Shown one piece after another: positions 2,026 to 34,610 of a stretch of DNA of 34,610 bases. This stretch comes from a virus. Numbering within the stretch: the first letter of the stretch is position 1; the number at the start of each line of letters is the position of its first letter. The translations under genes were made by a program, and so were the position numbers. Below the pieces are notes generated by a model, which saw nothing but the letters and a program-made list of their open reading frames with translations, made no database searches and was not told where the DNA came from. The stretch lies in the IMG/VR virus record IMGVR_UViG_3300042549_006194, positions 1 through 34,610 of that record. One strand, given 5' to 3'.

Positions 2026-3024
2026 ATGGCAAGACAAATCAAAAGATACGAATCAACAATTCAAGGCAATTATGTTTTTATCAATGAATATCTTGTTGAT
2101 TTGGAAACACTTGAATCAACATTGATTGATTTTGTTGAAATTCAAATGTCAAATTCACGAATTGTTCCAATCACAAAAGAATCAGGAACAATTCTTGAAA
2201 AAACTGGATTGTCAATCATTTCAAACAATGTGAATGTTTTTGTTTTTCAGAAATTTAGTGAAGTAATACTTGAAGGAATAATAAATCTTGTTGAAAATCA
2301 ATTTTTGTGTCAAAACATAGTTCAAAGTTTTGATGAAAATCTTGCATATTTTGCAAAAAACACTGGAAATTCAGGTAAAATAAATCTTCAATGGGGTGGA
2401 ATAACTGGTGACATTGCTGAACAATCAGATTTGCAAATTGCATTTAATAACAAAGCGGATGTTCCTTTGAAATTAAGAGTTTCAGGAATAAATGATTACA
2501 TTCCTGAATCAGATGTGAATGAAGCAAGACTTTTGTTTGACTTTTCACACTTAAACTTTGAAAATGGAAATAAATATGTGTTATTAATTGATAGGTACAA
2601 ACCCAGAGAATGGAAAAAAAGTAAAAATGTCATAAATATAGATGATGATGGAAATCCATTTATTGACACAATTAAAGTTTGGTATCCAGCAAAATTTTAT
2701 CACGAATCTTTTAATGATGCATTGGCAAACAATCGAAAATCAGAAATTCCAATTGAAAGAAATGCATTGATTCATGTTCCCATTGAAGCTAACAAATATT
2801 TTGGTGGAATAAATGATGGATTGGGTGGGAAAAGATGGTTTCCAAAGCCGAAAGGTTATCGAAAAAACACAAATAGAAGTCAATATCAAGGATTGGTTGT
2901 TTTGCAATTTAGAATAAGAATATTAAATGAATTTAACGAATTGATTCATGAAACAAATTCATTAGCAAAAATTCAAATTGTTTCAAGTTTGGATAATAGA
3001 AAAATTACATATAAATTGATATAA
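2026..3024 (+). CDS. Fibre-like structural protein, 332 aa
   Basis: Unknown by name, but the middle segment (about residues 123-145, QWGGITGDIAEQSDLQIAFNNKAD) matches a repeat motif common in phage tail-fibre stalks (W-G-x-I-T-G-x-x-x-x-Q-x-D-L-Q). The rest is rich in Asn, Ile and aromatic residues. A likely second domain near residues 225-295 contains HVPIEANKYFGGIN and GGKRWFPKPKGYRK. No membrane segment. It has its own candidate promoter and ends just before the structured region at 3023-3192. A second fibre or a fibre-network partner is the most likely role. It may instead be a baseplate decoration. Confidence 0.85.
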   Translation: MARQIKRYESTIQGNYVFINEYLVDLETLESTLIDFVEIQMSNSRIVPITKESGTILEKTGLSIISNNVNVFVFQKFSEVILEGIINLVENQFLCQNIVQSFDENLAYFAKNTGNSGKINLQWGGITGDIAEQSDLQIAFNNKADVPLKLRVSGINDYIPESDVNEARLLFDFSHLNFENGNKYVLLIDRYKPREWKKSKNVINIDDDGNPFIDTIKVWYPAKFYHESFNDALANNRKSEIPIERNALIHVPIEANKYFGGINDGLGGKRWFPKPKGYRKNTNRSQYQGLVVLQFRIRILNEFNELIHETNSLAKIQIVSSLDNRKITYKLI

Positions 3025-3192
3025 AAGGAATCTGGATGGGATTGTATGCTTATACCTTTGGCTATTTGAAAACTTGTTTTATCTGAAAAGATGGACTTAA
3101 ACATTTTTTCAAATAGTTTTGAAGGATTGGTTGAATATACCTACAAATGCGCATAGTAGGATTGTTTTTTCATACCCATCCAGACCTTTTTT
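3023..3192 (+). ncRNA. Candidate structured RNA, about 170 nt, multi-helix
   Basis: This 180-base gap holds nested inverted repeats rather than a gene. P1 pairs TCTGGATGGG (3031-3040) with CCCATCCAGA (3175-3184) perfectly and continues, past a two-base bulge, as AAAAGG (3023-3028) with CCTTTT (3185-3190). P2 pairs CTATTTGAAAA (3062-3072) with TTTTCAAATAG (3106-3116). It continues outward with two G-U pairs and CCTTT (3055-3059) to GAAGG (3121-3125). P3 is ATCT-GAAA-AGAT (3081-3092), a GAAA tetraloop, nested in GTTT (3076-3079)/AAAC (3099-3102). P4 is CCTAC (3140-3144)/GTAGG (3156-3160) with loop palindrome ATGCGCAT. A T-run follows P1. This is too elaborate for a simple terminator. No known class is recognised. 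Folding is by hand. Confidence 0.6.
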
Positions 3193-3204: not shown

Positions 3205-3531
3205 ATGAAAGGAATTGAAAATTTTACTGATTTAATTGCAATGTGCATCGGAGTGATTGGTGCATTTTTAAAAGGAATGAAAAAAAAATTCAGTAAATCA
3301 ACGATAATTATCGGAATGTTGATTGCTGGTGTCCTGACATATGCGATTACTGGATTGATTGAAATGTTTTTCAATGATGTTCCACAGAAAGTCATCATTT
3401 TGATTTCGTTTTGTGTTGGGTGGATTGCAAATGAAGTAACAGAAAAACTTGACGAATTTGTAAATGATTTTTATGACATCATCATTGAATGGATTCGAAG
3501 AAAATTCAATTATAAAAACAAAGAAAAATGA
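3205..3531 (+). CDS. Putative holin, 108 aa, three membrane segments
   Basis: Hydrophobic segments lie at about residues 9-23, 33-55 and 60-77, separated by a basic turn (KGMKKKFSKS), followed by a charged cytoplasmic-type tail (WIRRKFNYKNKEK). Size, topology and basic C-terminus fit a holin of the LydA type, which opens the inner membrane at lysis. It is the first gene of a three-gene lysis cassette; its stop overlaps the next start (ATGA). The ATG follows an A8 stretch. Family identity is inferred from topology and neighbours rather than a diagnostic motif. Confidence 0.75.
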   Translation: MKGIENFTDLIAMCIGVIGAFLKGMKKKFSKSTIIIGMLIAGVLTYAITGLIEMFFNDVPQKVIILISFCVGWIANEVTEKLDEFVNDFYDIIIEWIRRKFNYKNKEK

Positions 3532-3878
3532 AAAAAACAATGATTTCAATTCTTTTCGTTCTGATTGCATCTGCTGAACTTTATTCAGCAAATGATATGA
3601 ATATCCAAGAATATTCAAAAAGTCTTTCAGAATCGATAAAAACAATACAAAATGATGATTCATTGTTGTATTCTGACACCATTGTCAAACATGATGTTAA
3701 AGAAGTTGATGGTCATCTGGTTATTCAGGACACAATCATCATCGAAAATTTGATTGAACGTGAAGTAAAAAAATTCATTCAAGATGATTCGCACAAACCA
3801 ATTGAAAAATTCATGGTTATTCTTGTGTTCACGTTTGTCATTTCTGCACTAATTTATAGAAAAAAGAAAAATGGTTAA
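3528..3878 (+). CDS. Small exported membrane protein, spanin-like, 116 aa
   Basis: The N-terminus (MKKTMISILFVLIASAELYSA) is a typical signal sequence, followed by about 70 polar residues and a C-terminal membrane helix (about residues 95-110) ending in a positive tail RKKKNG. This N-out, C-anchored layout in a lysis cassette suggests a spanin-like or holin-accessory role linking periplasm and inner membrane. There is no lipobox cysteine, so it is not an outer-membrane spanin lipoprotein. Start overlaps the holin stop by 4 bases and its end overlaps the next gene by 8, showing tight translational coupling. Confidence 0.75.
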   Translation: MKKTMISILFVLIASAELYSANDMNIQEYSKSLSESIKTIQNDDSLLYSDTIVKHDVKEVDGHLVIQDTIIIENLIEREVKKFIQDDSHKPIEKFMVILVFTFVISALIYRKKKNG

Positions 3879-4437
3879 AAATTACACCGATTCACAATTG
3901 CTGAACAAAGTAAAATCACTTCCATCATTCAATGGATTTCCACAAGATTTCTGGATTCTTGGTGTTCAATCAGAAGAAGATACATTCAATGTATTTGATG
4001 ATAAATTCTACATTTTTAAAGGTCAACAATTCATCATGGTGACATCTGGAACAACCAATGCTGGAAAGAATGGTTTGATGAATTACGATGACTATAATTC
4101 AGAAGGTGTTGCCGTAATCAAGACAAATGAATTTTATTACAATGTATGGAAATTCGGTCTTCACAAAGGAAAAATGGAAGCATTGAAGCAAGTCAGACCA
4201 TTTCTGATTTCACGCGATGGTGACAAAGACCAGAAGATTGAAGAAGGTCTTTCCATTCCAGTGATTTGTGGAATAAATTTTCATGCAAACACATACGATT
4301 TTGACATCAAAGAAGTTAAAAAATTTATTGGTGGATGGTCTTTGGGTTGTCAAGTTGTTAATGCCAAATACAAAGAAATCATTCAACTTTTAAAACCACA
4401 AAAAATTGTTTCTTATTGCTTATTGAAAGAATTCTAA
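3871..4437 (+). CDS. Putative endolysin with YkuD-like active-site motif, 188 aa
   Basis: The C-terminal half carries GINFH (His138) followed 19 residues later by S157-L-G-C160-Q, reminiscent of the L,D-transpeptidase/YkuD signature, in which a His and an S/T-x-G-C pair act on peptidoglycan stem peptides. GLHKGK near residue 96 and RDGDKD near 115 may help bind substrate or metal. There is no signal peptide, so export would depend on the holin. As the third lysis gene it is the best candidate for the wall-degrading enzyme. Whether it hydrolyses or transfers peptides cannot be read from sequence. The spacing in the motif is slightly longer than in classical YkuD proteins. Confidence 0.75.
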   Translation: MVKNYTDSQLLNKVKSLPSFNGFPQDFWILGVQSEEDTFNVFDDKFYIFKGQQFIMVTSGTTNAGKNGLMNYDDYNSEGVAVIKTNEFYYNVWKFGLHKGKMEALKQVRPFLISRDGDKDQKIEEGLSIPVICGINFHANTYDFDIKEVKKFIGGWSLGCQVVNAKYKEIIQLLKPQKIVSYCLLKEF

Positions 4438-32452: not shown

Positions 32453-34610
32453 ATGGATTTAAAAATACACGAATACCCATTGGAACGCTTAAGTTTTGGT
32501 GATGATGACTATTATGACATCGATTTCTGGGATGGTTCTGAATATAAAACTGCGAAGATTTTAGGTTCGGTCATTAAAAGTGGAATATTGTCAGGAATTG
32601 CCATCAGTTTGACTGCACCAAGTGCATTCATTGTTGGTGGAAGCCCAGTTGATGGAAGTGGCACTTTGACCTTGACTGGTGCTGGTTTGGCAAATCAATA
32701 CATTCGCGGTGATGGAACACTTGCAACTTTTCCAACAAGTGGTGGTGGTGGAAATAGTGTTAATTACTATTTGAATGGTGGCACTGCATCAAGTGTTGCA
32801 ACTTACTTTCAAATGAGTAAAAACCCAGTGATTGGAACTGGTGTTGATTTTTCGCGTGATGGAAATGGTTTAATTTCACAATGGTTAACAGATTTGAATG
32901 AACCAAATGTCACCGAAATTCCAGCGGGAAATTGGAATTTTGAAATGTATTTTTCCGCAAGTTCTGCTGGTGGTGTTCCAAAATTTTACATTGAAATTCT
33001 GAAATACAATGGCACTACTTTCACAACAATTGCAAATAATTCATCCGTTCCTGAATCAATCACTGGTGGAACAACAATTGATTTGTACTTGACAAGTGTT
33101 CCCGTTCCTTTGACTCCATTGCTTGTGACAGATAGAATTGCTATTCGTGTTTATATTGTTGATTCAACTGCTGGAAGAACAATCATTCATCACACACAAA
33201 ATTCACATCTTTGTCAAATTATCACCAGTTTTTCAAGTGGAATTTCTTCCATAAATGGATTGACCAAACAAACGCAATATTTGGCAGTTGGAACTGCTGG
33301 AAGTGATTTTGCAATCAATTCTGCAACAGATACACATACATTCAATTTACCAACGGCATCTGCATCAATAAGGGGTGCTTTGAGTTCAGCAGATTGGACA
33401 ATTTTCAATAATAAACAAGATTTATTAGTTTCAACAACTAACATCAAAACAATCAATGGAAGTTCAATTTTAGGAAGTGGAAATTTGGTTGTTGGTGCGA
33501 GTTCAGGAGTTTTCGGAATTGCAAACACATCTGGTGTGTATACTTATTATGCTACTCCAGCATTGGCTTATGCTGCTGCAACAGTTGGACAAACTATTGA
33601 GTTATTTGCAGATTATACCACAAGTGGTTCGGAGGTTTTATTACTTACAAAGAATGTAAATTGGAATGGTAACGGACATACTTGGACTAAAACAGCAGTA
33701 AATGAAACTGCAATTTTTTCAAGTGGATATGCATCTTGTAAATTTTCTATACTTAATTTAAATTTAGTAAGACAAAATGGAACTAATCCATCTGGAGTTT
33801 TAGTTTCAAATTTATTTAATGGAGATACAAATGTTTCTGGTAGAATTATAATGACTGGTAGTTATTTTGAAAACCAAAGTACAACTGGAACTGCAATATC
33901 CTTATTTCCATCTTCATTGGAAATAGTCGGATTAATTGCAAAAGGAGTAAATATTGGTTCATTTATAGGTTCTACTAATATAGTGACCAATTGTTCATTT
34001 TATGGTGTTATTGGTACTGATATGCGAGGTATTGCAAATTCTTGCTATGCTCAAGGAACAACTGGAAATGGAATTAGTTTAGCCACATCATCGATTTTAA
34101 ATAATTGCATAGGAGTATCTGTATCTGGCTCTGGAATTTCAGGTGGCGGATATATGTATAATTCAATAGGTAGAAGCACTTCTGGATTTGGAATTGAATC
34201 AAGTGGGGGGATTGACCTAATTGGTTGCACTGGAATTTCAGTTTCTGGACAAGGGTTTTATTTATTTTTTAGCACATCAAAAAATATATCAAATAATACT
34301 GGCATTAGTTCATCTTCTTATGGTATTAGATTTCAAGCGTCTTATTGTTTTAATGGCACTTTTATTTCTACATCAAATGCAGCAGTTTGGGACACTGCGT
34401 CAAGTGGAAAATTGTACAATTGTAATTTAATTACAAGTTGGAATAATGCTTCGGGTTATGGAATTTTAGGAAATGGCGGTACTTTGCCAGTTTCAATAAT
34501 TGATTGCAGATTTAATTTAGCCAATGCTACTGCTAACTATATTAATAATGGTGGAGTGGCAAAAGTTATAAAAATGCGCGGTAATACATACGAAGGTGGC
34601 GCAACATTTA
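32453..34610 (+). CDS. Tail fibre/spike protein, 5' part (partial, runs off right edge)
   Basis: Open from ATG 32453 to the window end: 719 codons, no stop. The order is an N-terminal virion-binding part (MDLKIHEYPLERLSFGDDDY), a stalk domain with GTGVDFSRDGNG, an Ig-like segment, a fibre motif ASIRGALSSADWTIFNNKQD followed by INGSSILGSGNLVVG, then from about residue 360 a beta-helix rich in NCSFYG, NNCIGVSVSG and NCNLITSW turns. This matches the spike end at 1-512. Leucine is mostly TTA after about 33510 but mostly TTG in the preceding tail genes. The beta-helix is the probable receptor-binding or glycan-degrading tip. Confidence 0.9.
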   Translation, partial: MDLKIHEYPLERLSFGDDDYYDIDFWDGSEYKTAKILGSVIKSGILSGIAISLTAPSAFIVGGSPVDGSGTLTLTGAGLANQYIRGDGTLATFPTSGGGGNSVNYYLNGGTASSVATYFQMSKNPVIGTGVDFSRDGNGLISQWLTDLNEPNVTEIPAGNWNFEMYFSASSAGGVPKFYIEILKYNGTTFTTIANNSSVPESITGGTTIDLYLTSVPVPLTPLLVTDRIAIRVYIVDSTAGRTIIHHTQNSHLCQIITSFSSGISSINGLTKQTQYLAVGTAGSDFAINSATDTHTFNLPTASASIRGALSSADWTIFNNKQDLLVSTTNIKTINGSSILGSGNLVVGASSGVFGIANTSGVYTYYATPALAYAAATVGQTIELFADYTTSGSEVLLLTKNVNWNGNGHTWTKTAVNETAIFSSGYASCKFSILNLNLVRQNGTNPSGVLVSNLFNGDTNVSGRIIMTGSYFENQSTTGTAISLFPSSLEIVGLIAKGVNIGSFIGSTNIVTNCSFYGVIGTDMRGIANSCYAQGTTGNGISLATSSILNNCIGVSVSGSGISGGGYMYNSIGRSTSGFGIESSGGIDLIGCTGISVSGQGFYLFFSTSKNISNNTGISSSSYGIRFQASYCFNGTFISTSNAAVWDTASSGKLYNCNLITSWNNASGYGILGNGGTLPVSIIDCRFNLANATANYINNGGVAKVIKMRGNTYEGGATF
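34161..34610 (+). repeat. Right copy of diverged fibre-tip repeat (allele B)
   Basis: Aligns without gaps to 1-450, offset 34160, at about 82% identity. The last 52 bases (34559-34610) equal 399-450 exactly. If the ends overlap, the circle is about 34,160 bases. Confidence 0.9.

Follow-up and report, generated by a model that had tools for sequence, protein, structure and literature searches.

The locus

What function is performed by the interval that separates a tail-type gene from the lysis genes of this Bacteroidota phage? In the window, that is, the whole 34,610-nucleotide stretch of viral DNA analysed here (IMG/VR virus record IMGVR_UViG_3300042549_006194), positions 3023-3192 lie between the stop codon of a 332-aa gene (2026-3024) and the start of the holin gene at 3205, and no open reading frame of 60 aa or more was found on the plus strand of this interval. 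The features that frame it are the following.

2026-3024, plus strand: upstream tail-type gene, 332 aa (tblastn, alignment A6)
2515-3021, plus strand: basic C-terminal domain of its product, 169 aa, pI 9.6, predicted beta sandwich (pI, AlphaFold2)
3023-3192, plus strand: structured RNA, a three-way junction closed by helix P1, with a U tract after it (fold)
3205-3531, plus strand: holin, which opens the lysis cassette (Pfam Phage_holin_3_1, E 4.5e-5; PHROG holin/anti-holin)
3871-4437, plus strand: conserved lysis-cassette protein, the anchor for relatives, called lysin by label only (PHROG 3000, unknown function)

At its two ends (3-512 and 33900-34609) the window encodes near-identical fibre-like copies (RFQAS.CFNGTFI.SNA.VWDTASSG...), a sequence arrangement which suggests either that a duplicated fibre interrupted the assembly or that a circular genome was opened within the repeat.

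Fold and strand of the RNA

On the plus strand, 3023-3192 folds with a minimum free energy (MFE) of -52.7 kcal/mol (z -6.06); 200 dinucleotide shuffles gave -30.1 +/- 3.7, and none was as good. Together with the coding strand and the counterparts in two related loci, L032 and L088, this upholds the structured RNA that the initial annotation had placed between the tail and lysis genes, and the interval very probably encodes a functional structured RNA. It would be read on the coding strand, within the late transcript. The opposite strand reaches an MFE of -41.7 (z -5.16); the sense RNA is the better folder because its fold contains eight G-U pairs and that of the opposite strand one. The same fold is still dominant when flanks are added, and all helices and loops that had been drawn by hand are present in the computed structure, which consists of these elements.

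3031-3040 and 3175-3184, plus strand: closing helix P1, TCTGGATGGG with CCCATCCAGA, 10 perfect pairs (inverted repeat I4, 100% complementary; fold)
3023-3028 and 3185-3190, plus strand: outer extension of P1, AAAAGG with CCTTTT, 6 pairs
3175-3192, plus strand: terminator-like 3' end, formed by the P1 3' strand CCCATCCAGA, CC and then T6 (sequence, fold)
3055-3125, plus strand: P2 arm (fold, inverted repeat I1)
3062-3072 and 3106-3116, plus strand: P2 inner helix, CTATTTGAAAA with TTTTCAAATAG, 11 pairs, within an inverted repeat of 18 nt (89% complementary)
3081-3092, plus strand: P2 apical hairpin ATCT-GAAA-AGAT, with the GAAA loop at 3085-3088
3093-3097, plus strand: GGACT on the 3' side of the P2 arm
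3140-3160, plus strand: P3 hairpin, CCTAC (3140-3144) with GTAGG (3156-3160), 5 pairs (fold, sequence)
3147-3154, plus strand: palindrome ATGCGCAT in the P3 loop (sequence)

The three strands that join the helices are near-copies of each other, a feature absent from the initial annotation.

3039-3056, plus strand: junction linker 1, GG-ATTG-TATGCTT-ATA-CC, GGATTGTATGCTTATACC (direct repeat family D1; three-copy repeat)
3124-3141, plus strand: junction linker 2, GG-ATTG-GTTGAAT-ATA-CC, GGATTGGTTGAATATACC (direct repeat family D1; three-copy repeat)
3159-3176, plus strand: junction linker 3, GG-ATTG-TTTTTTC-ATA-CC, GGATTGTTTTTTCATACC (direct repeat family D1; three-copy repeat)

Every helix is flanked in the form AUA-CC[helix]GG-AUUG, and the linker from GG to CC is exactly 14 nt long in all three cases; the junction is therefore pseudo-threefold. 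Twelve of the 18 linker columns are identical in all three copies, and none of 300 shuffles equalled this, the best of them reaching 10. When at most one mismatch is allowed, the pattern has no other occurrence in the window, and it was found neither in the other loci nor in L032 and L088, where threefold linkers were sought specifically.

Two further observations concern linker 1 and its surroundings. UAUGC in the linker (3045-3049) and GCAUA of the P3 loop (3151-3155) are complementary, so that a pseudoknot is possible as a rival to the putative kissing dimer formed through the palindrome. Inside the RNA, TACCTTTG (3053-3060) fits the Bacteroidota -7 promoter box TAnnTTTG, and there is no -33 box at the right distance.

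Relatives of the RNA and of the upstream domain

The protein encoded at 3871-4437 and homologues of it were used to gather related lysis loci, and 825-1994 to gather upstream genes; about 104 loci were compared for the presence of the RNA and of the C-terminal domain of the upstream protein. In the same gap and on the coding strand, multi-branched RNAs are present in L032 (1862-2035, z -7.5) and in L088 (1589-1868, z -7.88). In the window, L032 and L088 alike the coding strand folds better; its G-U pairs number 8, 7 and 9, and those of the opposite strand 1, 1 and 7. This consistency bears on the idea of a DNA-level element such as a cruciform, a recombination site or a packaging site, which would agree with the position of the module at a variable boundary and with the ability of the interval to fold as DNA (z -5.1); such folding is, however, expected from inverted repeats, and the clearly more stable, G-U-richer coding strand in all three loci makes an element of this kind very improbable.

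The N-terminal ~116 aa of the upstream gene product are tail adaptor-like and are common to relatives without the RNA, and the C-terminal domain occurs outside the window only in L032 and L088 (27-38% identity). The carriers of the RNA are thus the carriers of the domain, in three of about 104 loci, and this perfect 3-of-3 overlap would arise by chance with a probability of ~6e-6 if the loci were independent, which phylogenetically they are not. In the closest relatives (L001-L008) the gap before the holin is at most about 45 nt and contains no RNA; like other close relatives, which retain the N-terminal part of the upstream gene, they have no C-terminal domain. A sliding fold scan upstream of the lysin in 87 loci placed L088 and L032 at the top and the window sixth; among those above the window, L003 and L001 were set aside since their high scores fall in coding sequence. 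A structure before the lysin homologue of L077 was also dismissed as this RNA, being one long hairpin with no adjoining holin gene. No such RNA was found in an additional set of loci beyond the 87, no fourth carrier in further IMG/VR scans with the C-terminal domain, and no RNA at the six distant loci that a search for the lysin in bacterial genomes returned; the C-terminal domain was absent from the three of these lysin-bearing genomes in which it was sought.

The carriers are spread over the lysin tree, whose supported branches require two changes or more, and therefore the domain and the RNA have been gained or lost together. L088 is nearer to the window by its lysin and nearer to L032 by its C-terminal domain, as expected if the module is mobile. 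The RNA and the upstream C-terminal domain probably form one co-inherited module. This link to the upstream gene is the main clue to the function of the RNA, and it was missing from the initial annotation.

The same comparison weakens the possibility of a trans-acting small RNA that is unlinked to the neighbouring protein and acts, for instance, as a dimer through its ATGCGCAT loop. The closing helix with its U tract does resemble the form of an autonomous small RNA, and an 8-nt self-complementary loop would suit such a role; in L032 and L088, however, no 8-nt self-complementary P3 loop was seen when the palindrome of the initial annotation was looked for, and the co-occurrence with the domain is perfect. 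We therefore hold this explanation to be distinctly improbable.

Two strongly folded stretches elsewhere in the locus collection are recorded here. L077:5761-5960 forms one long and nearly perfect hairpin immediately before an isolated lysis-protein homologue. L149:16381-16510 (record G012) is a multi-branched stretch directly 3' of a coding gene in a phage whose terminase is unrelated; its MFE is about -45 kcal/mol for 155 nt, it matches no Rfam family, and blastn gave no relative in the other loci.

Similarity among the three RNAs

The RNAs of the window, L032 and L088 have a common layout and almost no common sequence, and they are too diverged to align. No Rfam 15 covariance model, at gathering or at permissive thresholds, assigned a family to the window, to L122 (which holds the L032 RNA) or to L088, the permissive search giving chance-level matches only (E about 3), and this agrees with the earlier view that no described RNA family is involved. 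RNA sequence searches of IMG/VR, of phages and of all loci returned no relatives, a match of L181 to an 18-mer of L032 being a chance one inside a coding gene, and no description of the RNA was found in a literature search.

Single-sequence covariance models were run unfiltered on 900-nt regions. The window model (R1) scored 18.7 bits at the L032 RNA (E 6e-4), and the L032 model (R2) scored 14.7 bits at the L088 RNA (E 0.002) and 9.5 bits at the window RNA (E 0.05); on L088 the window model gave 8.4 bits, second in the region and no standout. Unrelated structured regions, two searched with R1 and one of these also with R2, scored at most 8.7 bits, and full-length matches to the structured stretch itself did not exceed ~2 bits with either model. 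Over 1.4 Mb, R1 produced chance matches of up to 18.3 bits, the 18.3-bit matches in L005/L006 being dropped for their many broken pairs, and the cross-detection, which is weak, consequently supports a shared layout without proving it. This layout is a putative three-arm plan made up of a closing helix, a long GAAA-capped arm and a short arm. CGCAT occurs in the P3 of each RNA; as its structural element differs from one RNA to the next, it is held to be a coincidence.

The 3' end and the lysis genes

The RNA ends 12 nt before the holin ATG in the window and 12-18 nt before it across the window, L032 and L088; the U tract after P1 is T6 in the window and L088 and TTTTATT in L032. With P1 and the U tract this close to the holin ATG, transcription can arrive at the lysis genes only by way of the RNA, barring an internal promoter. 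A scan for a simple terminator hairpin in 3023-3192 found none; the closing helix and T6 could serve as a multi-branched terminator. In L032, TGGGACTA occurs twice, as the P1 5' strand (1876-1883) and in the P2 apical loop region (1935-1942), and CATGGTG occurs twice in L088; in the window the second copy of the P1 5' motif is only 5 nt long (GATGG). The downstream recurrence of this motif in L032 and L088 would give the P1 3' strand a second possible partner.

The layout resembles that of attenuator- or riboswitch-type leaders, in which a structured leader likewise presents a helix and a U tract shortly before a start codon; in contrast to these, there is here no Rfam match and no ligand, and the RNA is found only alongside one tail domain. 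A simpler explanation is that the RNA is a structured 3' UTR, acting as terminator and stability element of a horizontally swapped receptor-binding tail-tip gene, with no binding by the domain. It follows the stop codon directly, it ends in P1 with a run of U after it (T6 in L088 as in the window), the C-terminal domain occupies a variable position of a tail gene and finds its top fold match in a tail tip, and linked transfer in one recombination unit would suffice for the co-occurrence. On the other hand, a plain hairpin is enough for a terminator, so that 143-270 nt folded into several branches seem more than is needed; termination would leave the holin untranscribed, as the 12-18 nt before its start have no space for a promoter; and the threefold linkers and the basic charge are left unexplained. 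We regard this plain 3' UTR as somewhat unlikely, even though both it and a leader bound by the basic domain fit the facts.

The basic C-terminal domain

The C-terminal domain has a pI of 9.6, 9.6 and 9.5 in the three carriers, whereas the N-terminal part of the protein is acidic (pI 4.5-5.1), as are most other tested proteins of the window. Its AlphaFold2 model is a beta sandwich (pLDDT 74.8, pTM 0.65) with a lambda tail-tip domain as the top structural match, which is weak (Z 5.2 over 78 residues) and weakly in keeping with a predicted role in the tail. Given this match, the charge of the domain may serve receptor binding. Fold searches with the domain gave no RNA-binding or toxin fold, at scores low enough for such a fold still to be possible, and searches of the upstream protein against Pfam, PADLOC and NCBIfam gave no match.

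Comparison with known systems

AbiF-RCd22, from a C. difficile prophage, is by analogy the nearest functional parallel: a protein and an adjacent structured RNA, encoded near a holin gene, form an RNA-protein complex, and RCd22, with its terminator-like 3' end, can act through premature termination (PMC12373285). The phage-encoded protein-RNA pair, the terminator-like 3' end and the vicinity of the holin are common to both systems (abiF RNA, RF03085), whereas in the present phage there is no Abi_2 domain and no RF03085 motif, and the RNA comes after a tail-type gene. In type III toxin-antitoxin systems (ToxIN), a basic protein likewise stands beside a structured RNA with repeated elements, ToxI; unlike ToxI, the RNA described here has no tandem pseudoknot units, its protein partner has a tail-type N-terminus and the gene order is reversed. 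A toxin of the ToxN/CptN/TenpN family was sought with Pfam and PADLOC without a match, and fold-search scores were low.

These parallels raise the question of whether the domain and the RNA constitute a toxin-antitoxin-like or counter-defence pair, in which a nuclease-like basic domain is checked by the RNA or acts via it, as in AbiF-RCd22 and ToxN-ToxI. A basic domain adjoining a structured RNA whose 3' end is terminator-like, the sporadic and co-mobile distribution, and the precedent of a phage-borne RNA-protein pair by a holin gene (RCd22/AbiF, PMC12373285) would agree with this; the missing Abi_2, PADLOC and Pfam toxin matches, the missing abiF RNA match, the fusion of the domain to a tail-type N-terminus and the position of the RNA after the gene instead of before it make such a pair quite improbable.

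The initial annotation had also considered a packaging function, for which phi29 pRNA would be the model. Size, three-way junction, self-complementary loop and the retention of structure while sequence diverges are similar, whereas the present RNA lies beside lysis genes and is absent from most relatives. The large terminase of this phage has a T7-type RNase H nuclease domain, with the small terminase upstream, and is not a phi29-type ATPase; most relatives with the same terminase are without the RNA. The packaging role is accordingly not supported: the resemblance is one of size and shape only, and the packaging machinery differs.

A possible link between tail assembly and lysis

The reading that we tentatively prefer starts from the observed fold, coding strand, position, domain co-occurrence and basic charge: the RNA and the basic tail-protein domain may be a mobile pair in which the RNA is the leader of the lysis operon. 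In such a scheme the basic C-terminal domain, carried on a possibly trimeric tail adaptor, would recognize the RNA, and the three near-identical junction linkers of this phage would offer three equivalent binding sites. The RNA would be an attenuator that changes its termination or its folding when the tail protein binds, and the accumulation of tail protein would thereby be coupled to lysis. The steps differ in their strength. Direct binding of the RNA by the domain is possible, though we hold it with some doubt; attenuation of the lysis operon by the RNA is rather unlikely as it stands; and the trimeric state of the tail protein and the timing of lysis are steps that we infer. Counting against the pairing are the small number of carriers (n=3), the lack of threefold linkers in L032 and L088, the modest R1 score in L088 together with the chance scores of R1, and the predicted domain structure, which corresponds to no known RNA-binding fold. 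A bolder version appears improbable: in it a trimeric tail-tip protein with an RNA-binding domain of its own would bind its own threefold-symmetric RNA, the two being encoded in a single mobile module, and the RNA would serve either as a lysis checkpoint where protein build-up relieves the attenuator or as a component of the tail structure.

To our knowledge, few structured RNAs are tied to phage morphogenesis or lysis genes. If the mobile pair that we tentatively prefer is real, a tail-protein domain and a structured leader of the lysis operon would be joined in one mobile module, which would supply a concrete route for coupling virion assembly to the timing of lysis. It would also represent a class of RNAs that escapes searches by sequence, as structure and gene context are kept where sequence is lost.
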